Assembly (NCBI RefSeq): GCF_000826655.1
Contig: NZ_JXJO01000022.1
Location: forward strand, 62,001 to 126,000
DNA from: Psychroserpens damuponensis
GTDB lineage: Bacteria; Bacteroidota; Bacteroidia; Flavobacteriales; Flavobacteriaceae
Reading direction: 5' to 3'
Length of the DNA: 64,000 bases
A program made the translations under genes and the position numbers. Under the pieces are notes generated by a model. That model ran no database searches and was not told where the DNA came from. It saw only the letters and a program-made list of their open reading frames with translations. Numbering within the stretch: the stretch's first letter is position 1; each line of letters starts with the position of its first letter. Positions 8,293 through 59,703 of this stretch are shown here, piece after piece.

Positions 8293-8542
8293 AATCTTAA
8301 GCTTTTAACTACTAGCTTTTGGCTTTTAGCTTGTTGAACTTCTTTTTTATTAGCTGTTGGCTGTTGGCCTTTTGCTGTTGGCGCGTTAAGGATTGCAACG
8401 ACATCCTTTTTTGTTTTTCTCAAAAAAGATATAGTGGAAAGCCTGACCCTTTTGGGTAACGCTAAAATTATTATTTAATGAGATTCTTCGCTATTGCTCT
8501 GAATGACATTTTTTATTTAAGATTCCTGCCTTCGCAGGAATT
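8293..8542. repeat. Repeat-filled gap between paaE and paaA
   Basis: The gap holds an AGCTTTTGGC / GCTGTTGGC low-complexity tract (about 8300-8380), copy D of the structured repeat (8383-8462), the TGAGATTC...GAATGACA repeat (8479-8508) and a cctgccttcgcagg palindrome near 8524-8537. No gene or clear terminator was seen. Confidence 0.65.
8383..8462 (+). repeat. Structured repeat, copy D
   Basis: The copy starts GCGTTAAGGATTGCAACG and ends TTTTGGGTAACGC. The internal hairpin pairs ATCctTTTTTTG with CAAAAAAGAT around tttttct; copy B has GCTC/GAGC at the same position, which is a compensated change. Confidence 0.8.
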
Positions 8543-25089: not shown

Positions 25090-25160
25090 AAGTTTTGCAA
25101 AGGTAATGAAAGGGTGATTGTTAATCAATTTTACCTCATGATTTTAAAATTTCTGAGGTT

Positions 25161-25247
25161 GCATTAGTGATTGAAGTGGCATCCTTTTGTAGCTTTTTTT
25201 TAGCTACAAAAGATATAACGGAAAGCACGACCCTTTAGGGTAATGCC
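25161..25247 (+). repeat. Structured repeat, copy E (with changed ends)
   Basis: The copy starts GCATTAGTGATTGAAGTGG and ends CTTTAGGGTAATGC. Compared with the other copies (GCGTTA...TAACGC) both ends have changed so that pairing is kept. The internal hairpin is a perfect 11-bp stem, CTTTTGTAGCT and AGCTACAAAAG. It lies between rlmN and queA. Confidence 0.8.
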
Positions 25248-34607: not shown

Positions 34608-34611
34608 ACTA

Positions 34612-34642
34612 AAAAAAAGACCATCAATTGATGGTCTTTTTT
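34612..34642. terminator. Bidirectional terminator before aromatic operon end
   Basis: AAAGACCATCAATTGATGGTC forms a self-complementary stem flanked by A-run and T-run. It ends both the secreted protein gene and the aromatic operon. Confidence 0.9.
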
Positions 34643-34643
34643 T

Positions 34644-35726
34644 TTATCCGTTTATAATCTTCTCTTGATGATTAATAGATTCTTGGTGAATAGCCTTAAA
34701 CATGCGTAAAATAAACTCTTCACTTAGTCCTTTTTCATCACCATCTAAAACCATTTTACCTAAGATCTCGTTCCAACGTTTGCTTTGTAAAACAGCAACA
34801 TTTTTTTGTTTTTTAAGACTCCCAATACCATCGGCAACTTTCATTCGTTTTCCTAATAACTCTATAAGTTGGCTATCTACAACATCTATTTGAGCTCTTA
34901 AATTATTAAGCTCTGAGTTATACTCGGCTTCAGGATCAGATTCTTTTCTAATTTTTAAATCTTCCATAATGTTAACCAAAGTTTTAGGAGTAACTTGTTG
35001 TGCAGCATCACTCCATGCATTATCTGGATCAAAATGAGTTTCTATCATTAAACCATCAAAATTTAGATCTAATGCAGTTTGTGATACATCAAAAATCATA
35101 TCTCTTTTTCCAGTTATATGTGATGGGTCATTAATTAATGGTAGGTCTGGAAATCTATTTTGAAACTCAATAGCTAATTGCCATTCTGGAATGTTTCTAT
35201 ACTTCGTTTTCTCATAGGTTGAAAATCCTCTATGAATTGCACCTAGATTTTTAACTCCTGCACTATATAATCTTTCTATACCACCTAACCACAAGGCTAA
35301 ATCTGGATTGACTGGATTTTTAACTAAAACTACCTTATCTGTTCCCTTAAGAGCATCTGCAATTTCTTGCATAATGAAAGGGCTTACCGTAGATCGTGCA
35401 CCAATCCATAATAAATCTACATCATGTTCTAAAGCTAATTCTACGTGGTTTCTATTAGCAACTTCAGTACAGGTTTTCATACCTGTTTCTTCTTTTACTT
35501 TTTGCAACCATTTTAAACCTAGAGCACCAACACCTTCAAAATTTCCTGGACGTGTTCTCGGCTTCCAAATACCAGCTCTGTAATAGTTAACATCAGTATC
35601 TTTTAGCTCGTGTGCTATTTTTAATACTTGCTCTTCAGTTTCTGCACTGCATGGTCCTGCGATAACTAATGGGTGATTTAACCCTAATTTATCTAACCAT
35701 GTTCTCATTTCTTTTTTGTTTTCCAT
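34644..35726 (-). CDS. Bifunctional DAHP synthase / chorismate mutase
   Basis: The enzyme joins the first step of the shikimate pathway with the branch step to prephenate. The 360-residue protein has an N-terminal DAHP synthase domain of the KDSA-related type (PLVIAGPCSAETEEQVLKIA, YRAGIWKPRTRPGNFEGVG, LINDPSHITGKRDM) and a C-terminal AroQ-type chorismate mutase (LRAQIDVVDSQLIELLGKRM). The ATG before ENKKEMRTW was chosen. It is the last gene of the aromatic operon. Confidence 0.93.
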   Translation of the reverse strand: MENKKEMRTWLDKLGLNHPLVIAGPCSAETEEQVLKIAHELKDTDVNYYRAGIWKPRTRPGNFEGVGALGLKWLQKVKEETGMKTCTEVANRNHVELALEHDVDLLWIGARSTVSPFIMQEIADALKGTDKVVLVKNPVNPDLALWLGGIERLYSAGVKNLGAIHRGFSTYEKTKYRNIPEWQLAIEFQNRFPDLPLINDPSHITGKRDMIFDVSQTALDLNFDGLMIETHFDPDNAWSDAAQQVTPKTLVNIMEDLKIRKESDPEAEYNSELNNLRAQIDVVDSQLIELLGKRMKVADGIGSLKKQKNVAVLQSKRWNEILGKMVLDGDEKGLSEEFILRMFKAIHQESINHQEKIING

Positions 35727-35832
35727 AATACTTTTTTTATCCTTCCGAATTTTAATTCTCATCAAAATCCACCTTCCCCAAAAAAAGGGAAGGAATTATT
35801 AGTCTCCTCTTTTTACTTATTTTGTTTTACAC

Positions 35833-36684
35833 TTAAATCAATCCTTTTAATATGTCTTTGATGTGGTTTGTATTTTCCATTTCGGTATAAATGGCATTAA
35901 AATCATCGGCTTCCATCAAAGCTTTAAATTGCTTGAGATTGGTTATATATTCATCTAAAGTTTCAATCACATTATCTCTATTTTGCTTAAAAATTGGTGT
36001 CCACATGGCTGGTGAACTTTTTGCTAAGCGCACAGTACTCTCAAAGCCACTTCCAGCCATATCAAAAATATCGCGCTCATTTTTCTCTTTTTCAATTACG
36101 GTTTTACCCAACATAAACGAGCTAATATGTGACAAATGAGACACATAAGCGATATGCTTGTCATGAGCTTCAGGATTCATATATCGAATACGCATTCCTA
36201 AGTCTGTAAAAAGCTTCAAAGCTTTCTCTTGAAGTTTAAAAGTTGTTTTTTCTACCTCACAAATGATATTCGTTTTTTTTTCAAACAAATGAGCTATTGC
36301 TGCTTTTGGACCAGAAAACTCTGTTCCTGCAATGGGATGTGTTGCTAAAAAATTACGACGCTTTTTATGATTTTCTACCGACTTACAAACCGGTAATTTC
36401 GTAGATCCTACATCTATCACTAGTGTTTGGTCTCCAATCTTATCTAAAACTTTAGGCAGCTCAACAATGGCTTTATCTACAGGAATAGAAAGGATGACTA
36501 CATCTGCCTGTTGCAAATCATCATACGTTGCTTTGGCATCAATTAAATTCAAATTTAAAGCCTCATCTAAGTGTTTGTCGTTAGAATCTATCCCAAAAAT
36601 TTTAGCATTTGTGTATTTAGACTTGATGTCTATTGCTAAACTTCCTCCAATTAATCCAATGCCTATGATGTGTATGTTATTCAT
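35833..36684 (-). CDS. tyrA: Prephenate dehydrogenase
   Basis: TyrA oxidises and decarboxylates prephenate to 4-hydroxyphenylpyruvate for tyrosine. The 283-residue protein has the Rossmann motif IGIGLIGGSLAIDIK, VDVGSTKLPVC, THPIAGTEFSGPKAA and the catalytic His segment AYVSHLSHISSFML. No ACT domain is present. It lies between the aminotransferase and the DAHP synthase. Confidence 0.94.
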   Translation of the reverse strand: MNNIHIIGIGLIGGSLAIDIKSKYTNAKIFGIDSNDKHLDEALNLNLIDAKATYDDLQQADVVILSIPVDKAIVELPKVLDKIGDQTLVIDVGSTKLPVCKSVENHKKRRNFLATHPIAGTEFSGPKAAIAHLFEKKTNIICEVEKTTFKLQEKALKLFTDLGMRIRYMNPEAHDKHIAYVSHLSHISSFMLGKTVIEKEKNERDIFDMAGSGFESTVRLAKSSPAMWTPIFKQNRDNVIETLDEYITNLKQFKALMEADDFNAIYTEMENTNHIKDILKGLI

Positions 36685-36772: not shown

Positions 36773-37918
36773 TTATGTTAATCTCTCCAATGCTTCCTCT
36801 AATTCATCAATAGATGCACAAAGCGAAAACCGTATATAGCCAATTCCATTACTACCAAAAATGGTTCCTGGAGTGATAAAAATTGATTTTTCTTTTAGTA
36901 TTAAATCGATATAATCTTCTGCTTTAATATGTTCAGGCAACTTAGCCCAAACAAACAATCCTGAGGCTCCTTTATTGTAGGTGCACTTAAGTGCATCTGC
37001 AATTTTCCATACAATTTTACGACGCTGTTCATACACGCTATTTAAACTCGAAAACCACATGTCTGAACATTTTAATGCTTCAATTGCTCCTTTTTGGAGG
37101 CCTAAAAACATTCCAGAATCCATATTACTTTTTACACGTAATACTGCATCTATATATTCATGCTTACCTAGCAACATACCTACTCTCCAACCTGCCATAT
37201 TAAAAGTTTTACTTATAGAGTTTAGCTCTAAACATACATCTTTGGCATTTTTATATTTTAATATACTTCTAGGGAAGCGATTAAGAATAAAACTATAGGG
37301 ATTGTCATTAACAATTAGAATATTATGACGTTTTCCAAATTTAATTAAGTCTTCAAATAATTTAACCGAGCCTTTTTCTCCAGTAGGCATATGTGGATAA
37401 TTCACCCACATAATTTTCACATTTTCAACGCCTCTTTTTTCTAGAGCTATCAAATCTGGACACCAATTAGACGCTTGCGTTAAATCATAAAAAACAGGAA
37501 CGGCTCCTACCAAATTGGTAACCGATTTATAAGTTGGATAGCCAGGATTAGGGATTAAAACTTCATCTCCTGGATTTAAAAATGCCATAGAAATGTGTAA
37601 AATCCCTTCCTTACTTCCCGTTAATGGAAGCACTTCTGTATGCGCACTAAGGTTGACATCAAAATGAGATTTATAAAAATTGGCAATAGCTTCTCTCAAC
37701 TCAGGTATCCCTTGATAACTTTGATATTTATGTACTGTTTCGTCTTCAAAAGTCTCAACTAGTGCATTTAGCACAGCTTCTGGAGGATGCAAATCTGGAC
37801 TTCCAATACCTAAATTGATAATGGGCTTACCTTGAGATTTAAGCAATCGCACTTCTCTTAACTTTTTTGAAAAGTAGTATTCTTCTACATTTTGTAAACG
37901 GTTGGCAACCTTAATCAT
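36773..37918 (-). CDS. Class I aminotransferase (aromatic operon)
   Basis: The 381-residue PLP enzyme has NPGYPTYKSVTNLVGA, VNDNPYSFI and the PLP-lysine segment NSISKTFNMAGWRVGM. Its place between pheA and tyrA suggests that it forms phenylalanine and tyrosine from their oxo acids. Its start overlaps the pheA stop by ATGA. The substrate is not proven. Confidence 0.9.
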   Translation of the reverse strand: MIKVANRLQNVEEYYFSKKLREVRLLKSQGKPIINLGIGSPDLHPPEAVLNALVETFEDETVHKYQSYQGIPELREAIANFYKSHFDVNLSAHTEVLPLTGSKEGILHISMAFLNPGDEVLIPNPGYPTYKSVTNLVGAVPVFYDLTQASNWCPDLIALEKRGVENVKIMWVNYPHMPTGEKGSVKLFEDLIKFGKRHNILIVNDNPYSFILNRFPRSILKYKNAKDVCLELNSISKTFNMAGWRVGMLLGKHEYIDAVLRVKSNMDSGMFLGLQKGAIEALKCSDMWFSSLNSVYEQRRKIVWKIADALKCTYNKGASGLFVWAKLPEHIKAEDYIDLILKEKSIFITPGTIFGSNGIGYIRFSLCASIDELEEALERLT

Positions 37919-38742
37919 AGTCTTGCGTTTTTATATTCTCCCAAAACCTTAAAGTCTTGTGCCATAATTTTCATTATGGATTTAGCTTTATCATAGTCTT
38001 TAAACGACTCAAAAGTCACATCTACAAAAAAGGCATATTTCCAAGGTGTTTCAATTTTAGGAAGAGATTGAATCTTTGTTAAATTTAACTTACAATCACT
38101 TAATACGTTTAAAATAGTCGCTAAACTTCCTCTTTTATGGTCTAATTCAAATTTTATTGATGCTTTATTGATTTCATGTACTGGTATTTCAGCATTTTTA
38201 GTTTTTACAATAAAGAAACGTGTTTCATTGTGTTTGATGGTTTGAATGCTTTCTGAAATGATATCTAGCTCAAACAATTGGGCAGCTAAACGCGATGCAA
38301 TAGCTGCAACATTTTTTGTTTGATTTTCCTGAATCCTCTGGGCTACTTGAGCAGTATCAATATCTTCAATTAATTTAATATGAGGATAGTGTTTAAAAAA
38401 CGATTTACATTGTAATAATGCCATAGGATGAGAATATACTTCTTTAATATCATCTATAGTTTGGTTTGGCAATGCCATTAAATGGTGTTGAATATCTAGA
38501 TAATGTTCTCCTACAATATGTAAATTATGAGTATCAATCAATGCATAATTTGGAATTATAGAACCTGCTATAGAATTCTCAATAGCCATTATAGCTGCAT
38601 CACAATTACGGTTTAAAATACTTTCAATTACAGCATCAAATGTCATACATTCATCTACCAACACACGCTCATCAAAATATTGCTGTGACACAATGTGATG
38701 AAATGATCCTTTAACTCCTTGTATGGCTACTGATTTTATCAA
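37915..38742 (-). CDS. pheA: Prephenate dehydratase
   Basis: PheA converts prephenate to phenylpyruvate. The 275-residue protein has SVAIQGVKGSFHHIV, AIMAIENSIAGSIIPNY and a C-terminal ACT regulatory domain (IKFELDHKRGSLATILNVL, LPKIETPWKYAFFVDV) for feedback by phenylalanine. The start is uncertain: no ATG fits, and I chose the TTG before IKSVAIQG with an A-rich stretch before it. A TTG 45 bases further up is the other option. Transcription is probably controlled by the leader at 38893 and the terminator at 38840. Confidence 0.92.
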   Translation of the reverse strand: MIKSVAIQGVKGSFHHIVSQQYFDERVLVDECMTFDAVIESILNRNCDAAIMAIENSIAGSIIPNYALIDTHNLHIVGEHYLDIQHHLMALPNQTIDDIKEVYSHPMALLQCKSFFKHYPHIKLIEDIDTAQVAQRIQENQTKNVAAIASRLAAQLFELDIISESIQTIKHNETRFFIVKTKNAEIPVHEINKASIKFELDHKRGSLATILNVLSDCKLNLTKIQSLPKIETPWKYAFFVDVTFESFKDYDKAKSIMKIMAQDFKVLGEYKNARL

Positions 38743-38839
38743 TTTTTTCTTTTTAATTATGACATCCCAAAACCTATTTAGGACCAATTCAATGTATTAT
38801 TTCAATATGATTATTAAGTACTTACCAAAATATTAAATC

Positions 38840-38870
38840 AAAAAAAAAGTCTCGATTTTCATCGAGACTC
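38840..38870 (-). terminator. Attenuator terminator of the aromatic operon
   Basis: On the minus strand AGTCTCGAT-gaaa-ATCGAGACT (38848-38869) is followed by nine T. It lies between the leader peptide and pheA in the direction of transcription, so it can only be a premature terminator. The part GTCTCG can instead pair with CGAGGC inside the leader (38906-38911), giving an antiterminator. Confidence 0.88.
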
Positions 38871-38892
38871 ATATTATATTTATTACTATAAA

Positions 38893-38970
38893 TTATACAT
38901 ACAATGCCTCGTTCTTTTCGCTAAAAAAGAAATAAAACCAGTTAAAATATGTATGATTTGATGTATTCAT
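38893..38970 (-). CDS. Aromatic-rich leader peptide of the pheA operon
   Basis: The 25-codon ORF starts MNTSNHT and then reads YFNWFYFFF before SEKNEALYV and a stop. Eight of nine successive codons (residues 8-16) are Phe, Tyr or Trp. It lies upstream of an intrinsic terminator and of pheA, the first gene of a Phe/Tyr operon. This is the layout of ribosome-mediated attenuation: with scarce aromatic aminoacyl-tRNA the ribosome stalls at residues 8-16, leaves CGAGGC (38906-38911) free and stops terminator formation; a ribosome that reaches the stop codon covers it. Confidence 0.88.
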   Translation of the reverse strand: MNTSNHTYFNWFYFFFSEKNEALYV

Positions 38971-39095
38971 GTCGTTATTATGATGCTAATGTACTTATAT
39001 TTTTAATAAATCAAAATTGTTAGACAATTTTTTTAGGTTTTACATTTCAGAATTAAAGATTTCACAATTTAAACTAAGGCATTAGCAATTATTAC

Positions 39096-39103
39096 TATTT
39101 TTG
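39096..39103 (+). promoter_or_regulatory. Candidate -7 element of gldA
   Basis: TATTTTTG matches TAnnTTTG 18 bases before the gldA start. This would give a very short leader. No TTG at the usual distance was seen. Confidence 0.35.
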
Positions 39104-39120
39104 AATAAATAAATTGATTT

Positions 39121-40014
39121 ATGTCTATCGAAGTTGAAAACATTTCTAAAGTTTATGGCGAGCAAAAAGCGCTAAACAATATTTCATTTTCAGTAAATAC
39201 AGGAGAAATTGTTGGATTTTTGGGACCTAATGGTGCAGGAAAATCTACGTTAATGAAAATTTTAACCACCTACATTAATGCTACAGAAGGTATTGCTAAG
39301 GTTAGTGGTTTTCAAGTTGAAACTCATAAACAAGACGTACAAAAAAGTGTTGGTTATTTGCCTGAGCATAACCCATTATATCTAGAAATGTATGTTAAAG
39401 AATACCTTACTTTTAATGCAGGTATTTATAAAACGTCAAAAACTAGAATCGATGATGTTATTGAACTTACGGGTTTAACACCAGAGTCTCACAAAAAAAT
39501 TGGTGAGTTATCTAAAGGTTATAGACAACGTGTAGGTTTGGCTAATGCGTTGCTTCATGACCCTTCGGTTTTAATTTTAGATGAACCTACTACAGGTTTA
39601 GATCCTAATCAATTAGTAGATATTAGACATTTAATTAAAAATATTGGCAAAGATAAAACAGTGTTTTTATCAACCCATATTATGCAAGAAGTTGAGGCTA
39701 TTTGTGACCGTGTGATTATTATTAATAAAGGGGAAATTGTTGCAGATAAAAAACTTAAAGATTTACGAGACGAGAAAGAACAAACGGTAGTTGTAGAGTT
39801 TGATTATCGTGTTGAAGATGCTTTTTTACTGAAACTTCCTAACGCCAAAACCGTTAAAAACACACACGATTTTATTTATGAAATCACATTCTCTACAGGA
39901 GAAGATATGCGTTCTCATGTGTTTGATTTTGCACATGATAATGAATTAAAGATTCTTCAGTTGAATCAAAAAAATGCAAGTTTAGAGAGTTTGTTTAGGG
40001 AGTTGACGAGTTAG
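39121..40014 (+). CDS. gldA: Gliding motility ABC transporter ATPase GldA
   Basis: The 297-residue ABC ATPase has the Walker A GPNGAGKSTLMKIL, the Q-loop region GYLPEHNPLY, signature LSKGYRQRVGL, Walker B LILDEPTTGLDPNQ and the switch His in FLSTHIMQEVEAI. The C-terminal part is typical of GldA, the ATPase that works with GldF and GldG. No gldF or gldG is adjacent, which is usual. It is divergent from the aromatic operon. Confidence 0.9.
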   Translation: MSIEVENISKVYGEQKALNNISFSVNTGEIVGFLGPNGAGKSTLMKILTTYINATEGIAKVSGFQVETHKQDVQKSVGYLPEHNPLYLEMYVKEYLTFNAGIYKTSKTRIDDVIELTGLTPESHKKIGELSKGYRQRVGLANALLHDPSVLILDEPTTGLDPNQLVDIRHLIKNIGKDKTVFLSTHIMQEVEAICDRVIIINKGEIVADKKLKDLRDEKEQTVVVEFDYRVEDAFLLKLPNAKTVKNTHDFIYEITFSTGEDMRSHVFDFAHDNELKILQLNQKNASLESLFRELTS

Positions 40015-47432: not shown

Positions 47433-47490
47433 TTTATACTGTTTTATAAAAATGTCATCACGAAAGTAAAGTAGAATTTACTTGTGTATT

Positions 47491-47595
47491 GTTTATCTGT
47501 CCAAAAAATAATTTTTGGTAGAATTTAGCACCTTCTTTAAGATAAAGGGTTGCTAAGGCTTCAATGGGTCTATTCCCTCTGCCTTTCATGATAAC
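47491..47595 (-). ncRNA. SAM-I (S-box) riboswitch upstream of metH
   Basis: On the minus strand the aptamer starts GTTATCATGAAAGGCAGAGG, then has AGACCCATTGAAGCC, TTAGCAACC, GAAGGTGCTAAATTC and a P4 stem CCAAAAA/TTTTTGG, and closes with GATAA pairing to the first bases. These are the conserved S-box elements in order. It lies about 60 bases before the start of the first metH gene. No intrinsic terminator follows, so control may act on translation. Confidence 0.92.
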
Positions 47596-47661
47596 ATCAA
47601 TAATAATATGAACGATAACGTAAATTAACGCATTAAATTTATAATAAAAAAATATTATTTA

Positions 47662-57426: not shown

Positions 57427-57546
57427 TTTTCTAAGTTTTTGAGTTAATTAAAGATTAAACCAAAAGCCAAATAAGCCTCGAAAGGCATACCTAATAGAAA
57501 AATGTTATGAAGAAATCGCTAATTACAGATGAGCAATTAGTTTTTA

Positions 57547-57666
57547 GTTATCTATCCAAATTTGCAAAAAATGACTTGCACCTTCAAGTAGAATTTAGCA
57601 CCTTCATAGTAAATCTATGGGTTGCTAAGGCTTCAACGAGTCTATCTCTCCACCTTTCTTGATAAC
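57547..57666 (-). ncRNA. SAM-I (S-box) riboswitch upstream of metY
   Basis: On the minus strand the aptamer begins GTTATCAAGAAAGGTGGAGA, continues with GACTCGTTGAAGCC, TTAGCAACCC and GAAGGTGCTAAATTC, has a P4 stem TGCAA/TTGCA, and ends GATAAC, which pairs perfectly with the first six bases. It lies 120 bases before metY. No clear terminator follows. Confidence 0.92.
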
Positions 57667-57934
57667 ATTTCAGTAAGTGTTTGAACTTTGTGAGTACAAA
57701 TATTGCAAAATTTAAATTGGACGACCAAACGAAACGGAATATTTTTCTAAAATATTAACTTAATATCTGTTAAACAGAAAAATATTCGGCTATTATTAGC
57801 TTTAACTGTATTTACTTCGGAAATATTAAAAACACAATTGTATTCTCTTTTTAGATAAGAATAGTATTGCTCGAGTAATAGTTGTTCTTTCAAATTTGAC
57901 GTTTAAATTCTATTTACTAAAACGTTTTATAAAA
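57667..57934. other. Gap upstream of the metY riboswitch
   Basis: With the riboswitch this makes a 508-base gap without protein genes. On the minus strand near 57695 AATATTTG follows a TTG by about 21 bases, a weak promoter match for the riboswitch transcript. I see nothing else. Confidence 0.35.
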
Positions 57935-59568: not shown

Positions 59569-59581
59569 CACTTTCAAATAC

Positions 59582-59634
59582 AGAGGAAAAATTTGTTCTG
59601 ATTGCAACCTCATTAAAAAAATGCTAAAGCAGTT
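59582..59634 (+). ncRNA. SAM-II-like riboswitch upstream of metK
   Basis: The segment has GAGG pairing with CCTC (59583-59586, 59608-59611), the loop ATTTGTTCTGATTGCAA and downstream ATTAAAAAAATGCTAAAG, which resemble the SAM-II conserved UUUG, AUUGCA and GCUAAA elements. CTG (59598-59600) can pair with CAG (59630-59632) to form the pseudoknot. It lies right after the promoter and before metK. The first stem is short and 70 bases separate it from the start, so I am not certain. Confidence 0.62.
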
Positions 59635-59703
59635 AGTTATACACTTCTCTAGCGACCAAGCAATCTCAAATTATTTTTCAGAATTATAAAATTTAAGAGA
59701 TTT

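Follow-up and report, generated by a model that had tools for sequence, protein, structure and literature searches.

A leader peptide rich in aromatic residues and a predicted ribosome-mediated attenuator upstream of pheA in Psychroserpens damuponensis and other Flavobacteriaceae

The pheA operon in the stretch of Psychroserpens damuponensis DNA analysed here (64,000 nucleotides of contig NZ_JXJO01000022.1, hereafter the window) is most probably preceded by a ribosome-mediated transcription attenuator, a reading to which we give a probability of about 0.93. An earlier note on this DNA had claimed a leader-peptide attenuator for the operon, and this interpretation gains support from the spread of the leader among relatives, from the alternative helices and from the joint change of their segments. 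The leader ORF, three predicted alternative helices, their conservation and joint change, a promoter motif and the content of the operon can all be read from the sequences. The mechanism itself is classical, and the system represents a well-supported case of it that is more extensive than the earlier note thought and that possibly has a three-amino-acid input.

Results

The leader ORF comprises 25 codons from ATG to TAA (38893..38970, minus strand; read from the sequence) and encodes the peptide MNTSNHTYFNWFYFFFSEKNEALYV. Its codons 8-16 form the aromatic run YFNWFYFFF (38923..38949, minus strand), with F, Y or W at 8 of 10 residues. This 25-codon ORF upstream of pheA had been described before, and its position on the minus strand (38970-38893) proved to be right. 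When the 451 nt upstream of 38769 were shuffled 2000 times with dinucleotide content preserved, an equally aromatic-rich ORF arose in 3 cases. The leader RNA folds with a z-score of -3.1 against its own shuffles, of which 1 in 200 was as good.

Downstream of the ORF follows the terminator hairpin 3:4 (38847..38870, minus strand; GAGTCTCGAT-GAAA-ATCGAGACTT) with its U tract (38840..38848, minus strand; nine T after the last C). The 9-bp hairpin with nine U of the earlier description is therefore present at 38870-38840, its stem having 10 pairs if the outer G-U is counted and 9 without it. The CGAGGC core of segment 2 (38906..38911, minus strand), which forms the 5' side of the antiterminator base, starts at the 12th base after the last Phe codon of the run and pairs with GTCTCG (38911-38906 with 38868-38863) over 6 bp including one G-U, exactly as had been claimed. 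The further claim that this makes a simple antiterminator holds for the 6-bp pairing and fails for its extent, since in the modelled fold CGAGGC:GTCTCG is the base of a whole antiterminator hairpin 2:3 of approximately 20 bp (38863..38911, minus strand). The third helix, 1:2, is a putative protector that joins segment 1 (TCATACATA; 38948..38956, minus strand) as 5' arm to a 3' arm (TATGTATAA; 38893..38901, minus strand) that contains the leader stop codon. The neighbour upstream of the leader is a divergent ABC-transporter-like gene (39121-40014, plus strand; named by eye from its sequence), which leaves the hairpin without a nearby gene to terminate except the leader. In the window approximately 100 nt (38743-38839) lie between the T run and pheA, and in many close relatives the T run of the terminator ends directly ahead of the pheA match.

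A predicted promoter of the Bacteroidota sigma-A type precedes the ORF. It consists of a -33 element TTTG (39012..39015, minus strand), an 18-nt spacer and a -7 element TACATTAG of the type TAnnTTTG (38986..38993, minus strand) that ends 15 nt ahead of the ORF. Of 125 loci, 110 have a pair of TTTG-like and TAnnTTnG elements ahead of the leader, against 4.1 expected from mononucleotide shuffles. The TAnnTTTG box has been placed at -12 to -5 (PMC9723704). Judged from the promoter motif only, transcription would start at about 38981 and thus upstream of the ORF, as the attenuation model needs. A sigma-70 scan was uninformative for this phylum.

The operon starts with pheA (37915..38742, minus strand), which encodes a prephenate dehydratase (PF00800, 2.2e-55; the ACT domain is below cut-off). 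Its start is probably the TTG at 38742, from which LIKSVAIQ is read near the point where the matches of close homologues begin. Next come a class I/II aminotransferase gene (36773..37918, minus strand; PF00155), tyrA for prephenate dehydrogenase (35833..36684, minus strand; PF02153 and PF20463, with NF006307 above cut-off) and a gene for a DAHP synthase-chorismate mutase fusion (PF00793 and PF01817). The last gene is given here as the listed ORF (34644..35765, minus strand), of which the ATG at 35726 looks the likelier start. A terminator-like palindrome with T runs on both strands lies at the operon end (34611..34644). All 80 of the named loci compared share the gene order pheA-aminotransferase-tyrA-DAHP synthase. 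Among named loci, those closest by PheA belong to an uncultured Psychroserpens and to Arcticiflavibacter luteus.

The assembly of the window (3.95 Mb, 99.5% complete) has two genes with a PF00793 match, namely KdsA (NF003543 and TIGR01362 above cut-off) and the operon enzyme, and no class II DAHP synthase was detected in it. Exactly two PF00793 genes are also present in 73 of 78 genomes of the family; the other five have one (G141) or three (G148, G168, G133 and G096), and a class II DAHP synthase was found in none of the 78. The assignment of the approximately 200-bit PF00793 match to KdsA was checked in the own genome and is inferred from score and length elsewhere. Among the matches listed, inspection by eye places the DAHP synthase of approximately 130 bits on the pheA contig, at a distance of at most about 4 kb, in 71 of 72 genomes; the exception (G133, locus L201) is also without a leader. 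In this exceptional locus, pheA and the DAHP synthase gene lie on separate contigs. Very probably, then, the sole detected DAHP synthase is under the pheA leader. Because the operon holds the only detected DAHP synthase, the aromatic pathway, including that to Trp, depends on this operon.

The alignment of relatives that the earlier note had proposed revealed that the leader is widespread. Of 103 loci identified through PheA (two overlapping locus sets that share some genomes), 101 have it ahead of pheA, and the two misses (L031 and L059) have 138 and 49 nt of upstream contig. In a wider, non-random sample of 110 loci of the family (109 genera by our reading), of which 80 were taken one per genus from the better-scoring among the PheA matches listed and 30 from more divergent genera, the leader was found within the last 450 nt in 107 loci and in 108 if L110 is counted. 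Other families of the class, sampled by 20 loci chosen among matches within the same class, possess it in 17 cases (for example MPASVFFYYGYYYFFFTKKRGPVCQS). Its presence in nearly all sampled loci of the family and in most of those from other families suggests that attenuation is a standard and old device in this group.

A terminator was found for 221 of 225 leaders. Six loci lack a leader within 450 nt (L110, L193, L201, L214, L215 and L217). In L193 and L201 the terminator scan detects none, and the terminator candidates in L214, L215 and L217 score only 6.4-7.7, the other loci having a median score of 17.6 and a minimum of 5.7. L110 had to be rejected as a case of leader loss, since its leader and terminator both sit farther upstream than 450 nt, behind a 110-bp tandem repeat of 3.8 copies (255-671 of the locus) that separates the pheA terminator from pheA. 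Five of the six loci are thus without a comparable terminator and the sixth has both elements, so that the constellation which the earlier note held to speak against attenuation, a terminator conserved without an aromatic ORF, was not encountered. As far as these loci show, leader and terminator are gained or lost jointly. L193 and L201 are the two loci of the family in which both elements are missing; L193 belongs to a genome of approximately 1.6 Mb and has 379 nt of contig upstream. The tests on 122 loci described below omit nine of 131, namely all six loci listed above and another three (L181, L198 and L229) in which no terminator was detected.

Coding constraint on the leader ORF was seen in an alignment, A1, of 58 out of 126 reference sequences, chosen for similar length and for the GTCTCG arm, which does not include every locus of this arm type. 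Within the ORF, each of the 41 gap runs spans 3 or 6 nt, compared with 225 of 333 gap runs between stop codon and terminator that are not multiples of 3; these runs are not independent events, since related rows share gaps. Variation in codons 12-16 amounts to 0.007, 0.053 and 0.097 at positions 1, 2 and 3, respectively. Both the frame-keeping gaps and the variation at third positions favour a translated ORF. Members of the main clade have a conserved leader peptide; between groups the peptide differs, with the aromatic run retained. Where the ORF stops early, as in L007 and L057, similar bases still come after the stop, which suggests that they are retained as RNA.

All three predicted helices are well preserved in A1, with 99.2% of cells paired in the 3:4 terminator, 99.4% in the 2:3 base CGAGGC:GTCTCG and 90.4% in the 1:2 helix, which joins codons 5-8 to the end of the ORF. 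Of the 9 pairs of the 1:2 helix, 8 are present in the window and approximately 5 in some relatives (L114 and L137). In the main clade, covered by the 58 rows of A1, nine cells of this helix are changed on both sides, compared with 2.9 in shuffles, and none of 500 shuffles reaches nine. These double changes fall on two of its pairs, which is not unusual, since 295 of 500 shuffles reach that number. No double-change cells were seen for 2:3 or 3:4 in A1, and the shuffles were not exceeded. Segment 3 is nearly invariant in the main clade; most of the variation in segments 2 and 4 consists of A/G or C/T steps, which preserve G-U pairing with segment 3. Such a near-invariance is expected of a strand with two partners and accounts for the missing double changes in 2:3 and 3:4. 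With respect to stem changes, for which the earlier note had suggested a test, there are hence some two-sided changes in helix 1:2, and segments 2, 3 and 4 change together between groups.

This joint change becomes visible in the comparison of distant loci. Antiterminator, terminator 5' arm and terminator 3' arm read CGAGGC, GAGTCTCGAT and ATCGAGACTT in the window, GAGGCTTT, AAAGCCTCGA and TCGAGGCTTT in L176, and CCGGGTT, AAACCCGGAA and TTCCGGGTTT in L204. There are 51 distinct core sequences among the loci, and when one locus per core type is taken, foreign terminator arms reach the score of the own arms in 434 of 2550 swaps. Read in this way, the antiterminator and terminator segments change jointly between groups. 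The antiterminator is matched by at most 10 of 200 shuffles in 108 of 122 loci; it is weak in the other 14, where more than 10 of 200 shuffles reach it, and in L163 it consists of merely 3 contiguous bp. It starts 2-19 nt (7-19 nt in 121 of 122 loci) past the final aromatic codon in the ten-residue stretch that is richest in aromatic residues, and some loci have one further Phe codon beyond this stretch. The energy of the 2:3 hairpin has a median z-score of -3.98 against shuffles and lies below -2 in 117 of 122 loci, and that of the 3:4 hairpin lies below -2 in all 122; both sets of scores are partly circular, because the hairpins were selected for pairing.

For the modelling of ribosome positions we assumed that the RNA becomes free 15 nt beyond the first base of the codon in the A site. 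The footprint of a ribosome at a stop codon has been given as 12 nt downstream (PMC4833913). For RNA that ends after segment 3 and carries a ribosome at its first aromatic codon, the modelled probability of the antiterminator core has a median of 0.99. In the window, the 2:3 helix is predicted to extend to approximately 20 bp if the ribosome is stalled in the run and segment 4 has not been made yet; once the ribosome has reached the final Phe codon of the run, its assumed footprint extends to the first base of segment 2, and the remainder folds as antiterminator. The leader stop codon lies at most 18 nt past the antiterminator start in 110 of 122 loci, 16 nt being commonest, and at this distance a finishing ribosome would overlap segment 2. 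In 10 of these 110 loci it lies ahead of segment 2, and in the other 12 of the 122 it lies 19-30 nt past the start of this segment. The probability of 0 that the model returns with a ribosome at the stop codon is a consequence of the assumed masking. When segment 4 is present and the ribosome stands at F12, the lowest-energy modelled fold has the terminator and not the antiterminator. Since the terminator is lower in energy once segment 4 exists, the model needs 2:3 to form first. In the modelled RNA without a ribosome, the antiterminator core reaches a probability of at least 0.5 in 88 of 122 loci, which means that the untranslated state is not clearly "off".

Discussion

Based on these observations we propose the following mechanism, in which stalling, termination and the response to starvation are inferred from the sequences. 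Transcription would begin approximately 11 nt ahead of the leader ORF. Given an ample supply of charged tRNA for Phe and Tyr, and perhaps for Trp, the ribosome would reach the leader stop and cover segment 2 (CGAGGC...), segment 3 (GTCTCG...) would then pair with segment 4, and RNA polymerase would halt in the U tract approximately 100 nt ahead of pheA. Under a shortage of charged aromatic tRNA, the ribosome would stall in YFNWFYFFF, where it covers segment 1 and leaves segment 2 free. The 1:2 helix would thereby be blocked, the long 2:3 antiterminator could form before segment 4 is made, and the polymerase would continue into the genes for PheA, the aminotransferase, TyrA and the DAHP synthase/chorismate mutase.

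Three other explanations of the leader region were weighed against ribosome-mediated attenuation. Phe/Tyr-rich ORFs arise from AT-rich DNA, and the peptide is conserved inside the main clade, so the hairpin might be an ordinary terminator and the ORF a chance ORF or a gene for a small protein. We consider this very unlikely. The shuffles, the three-base gaps and the co-changing segments speak against an ordinary terminator next to a chance ORF, and so does the retention of the downstream bases in L007 and L057, where the ORF stops early. An ordinary terminator would moreover find no same-strand gene immediately upstream to end, and between groups the peptide changes while its aromatic run stays. 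A layout of terminator and antiterminator is also common to riboswitch and T-box classes, and one could think of such an element binding a metabolite or a tRNA, with the ORF being secondary. This appears extremely unlikely, since the groups resemble each other less in sequence than in their aromatic run and complementarity. Furthermore, no match to Rfam at gathering score lies in the leader region, no family found at that score anywhere in the window explains the pheA leader element, and a permissive Rfam scan of 38700-39120 gave seven sub-threshold matches, none of them to a riboswitch or T-box. Finally, the terminated RNA of approximately 140 nt or the peptide might act in trans besides its action in cis, as has been reported for the trp leader peptide peTrpL of Sinorhizobium (PMC7298713). 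The prediction of a discrete short RNA and the conservation of the peptide in the main clade would fit such a role, but nothing points to a target and between groups little beyond the aromatic content is kept, and we therefore give an additional activity in trans a small chance.

A different question, within the preferred reading of a ribosome-mediated attenuator, is which amino acids it senses. There is about an even chance that the attenuator responds to Phe and Tyr only and that its Trp codon is incidental. Trp is absent from 32 of 107 leaders of the family and from 12 of 17 leaders of other families, the remaining 5 of the latter having one Trp codon each. In the range of loci L058-L103 (minus L059 and L077), which are mostly from Flavobacterium, it is absent in 33 of 44, and these absences occur though the number of DAHP synthases hardly varies. 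The Trp column of A1 changes to Phe in 7 of the 58 rows, to a gap in 7 and to Gly in 1, and a leader has at most one Trp next to about 5 Phe and 4 Tyr. Against an incidental Trp codon stands its retention in 23 of 23 loci of the genus of the window and in 43 of 58 rows of A1. Exactly one Trp is found in 75 of 107 leaders of the family and two in none, that is, 0.70 per leader of approximately 24 residues. In proteins, Trp usually accounts for approximately 1% of the residues, a share that is exceeded here. The supply of Trp also depends on the operon, as its DAHP synthase is the sole one detected. Whether Trp in the leader goes with DAHP synthase number was considered as well, and the comparison turned out to be uninformative, since 73 of 78 genomes have exactly two PF00793 genes.

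Taken together, the single Trp codon and the only detected DAHP synthase raise the question whether a shortage of Trp opens a Phe/Tyr operon for the sake of chorismate. A tentative and more far-reaching version of the attenuator would be that one leader peptide integrates Phe, Tyr and Trp, that it is the main transcriptional control of shikimate entry, and that it is ancestral to the Flavobacteriaceae, with a Phe/Tyr-only form ancestral to much of the class. It would then do the work that is shared by TyrR-type repressors and attenuators in enterobacteria. The role as main control follows, in this three-amino-acid version, from the fact that the guarded operon holds the only DAHP synthase of the genome. 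We regard the combination of all these parts as possible and somewhat doubtful.

The enterobacterial Phe leader likewise lies upstream of pheA and has a leader ORF with Phe codons and a terminator/antiterminator. Its Rfam family (RF01859, Phe_leader) scores 16.9 bits here, against a gathering threshold of 55. In contrast to the enterobacterial leader, that of the window mixes in Tyr and Trp codons, and its operon also holds the aminotransferase, tyrA and DAHP synthase genes. More generally, the classical attenuators of Proteobacteria (trp, his, phe, thr and ilv) have 1:2, 2:3 and 3:4 helices, codons matched to the product and a terminator with a U tract. The element described here shares this helix anatomy in a different phylum, the sequences having been compared through Rfam only. 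Attenuators were reportedly predicted in Bacteroidetes/Chlorobi by Vitreschak et al. in 2004 and by Lopatovskaya et al. in 2010. Short ORFs resembling leader peptides have been described in 5' UTRs of B. thetaiotaomicron (PMC7366714), and phenylalanine operons elsewhere are known to be under attenuators (PMC1262725); words beginning with "Bacteroid" or "Flavobact" are absent from the main text of PMC2965389.

A structured and conserved 5' element upstream of pheA is already on record for F. psychrophilum (PMC9723704). This element, which precedes the same gene in the same family as that of the window, was described as conserved in other Flavobacteriaceae and as having no Rfam hit, and the same article mentions leader-peptide attenuation upstream of amino-acid operons. 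The account of this element in PMC9723704 gives no leader peptide, codons, alternative helices or spread beyond the family, and the supplements (Table S7 and Appendix D9) may contain some of these. For an element that is only flagged as structured and conserved in that account, the present model specifies the ORF, the helices, the promoter and the stop position. Among titles and openings of abstracts, in which subscription literature is mostly uncovered, we found no other paper on a Phe/Tyr/Trp leader for pheA in the phylum.

The own genome holds two further leaders that resemble the pheA leader in having a short ORF with a matching codon run, a hairpin and a T run. The strongest trpE match of the assembly (430.8 bits over the full length, below the model cut-off of 517.7) is preceded, at locus L236, by MNTNLNHTWWWNSRNENVVN, which has a WWW run and is followed by a hairpin (AAGGCTTGTC...GACAAGCCTT) and a T run as seen by eye. 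Unlike the pheA leader, this trpE leader shows no aromatic mixture. Upstream of hisG, which scores above cut-off, locus L239 has MNFISLHHHFHVIAQAR with an HHHFH run, again followed by a hairpin and a T run by eye. These are likely to be a trp and a his attenuator, respectively. With pheA included, all three operons examined in this genome have leader codons that match the product. The other two matches to the trpE model (L237 and L238) have no leader with a Trp run upstream.

A search of the own genome with the covariance model R1 returned the pheA element with 138 bits and eight weak matches of at most 37.5 bits. None of the four weak matches examined (L241-L244) has an aromatic ORF; L241, L242 and L244 have, by eye, a hairpin sequence with T's. 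Another weak match, L246, corresponds to the pheA terminator read on the other strand.

The window also contains RNA elements of other families. Three SAM riboswitches of two classes (SAM-I twice and SAM-II once) lie within about 12 kb, at 47490-47597 (minus strand), 57545-57668 (minus strand) and 59577-59637 (plus strand), and two matches to the Flavo-1 RNA are found at 8369-8452 and 25159-25236, both on the plus strand.
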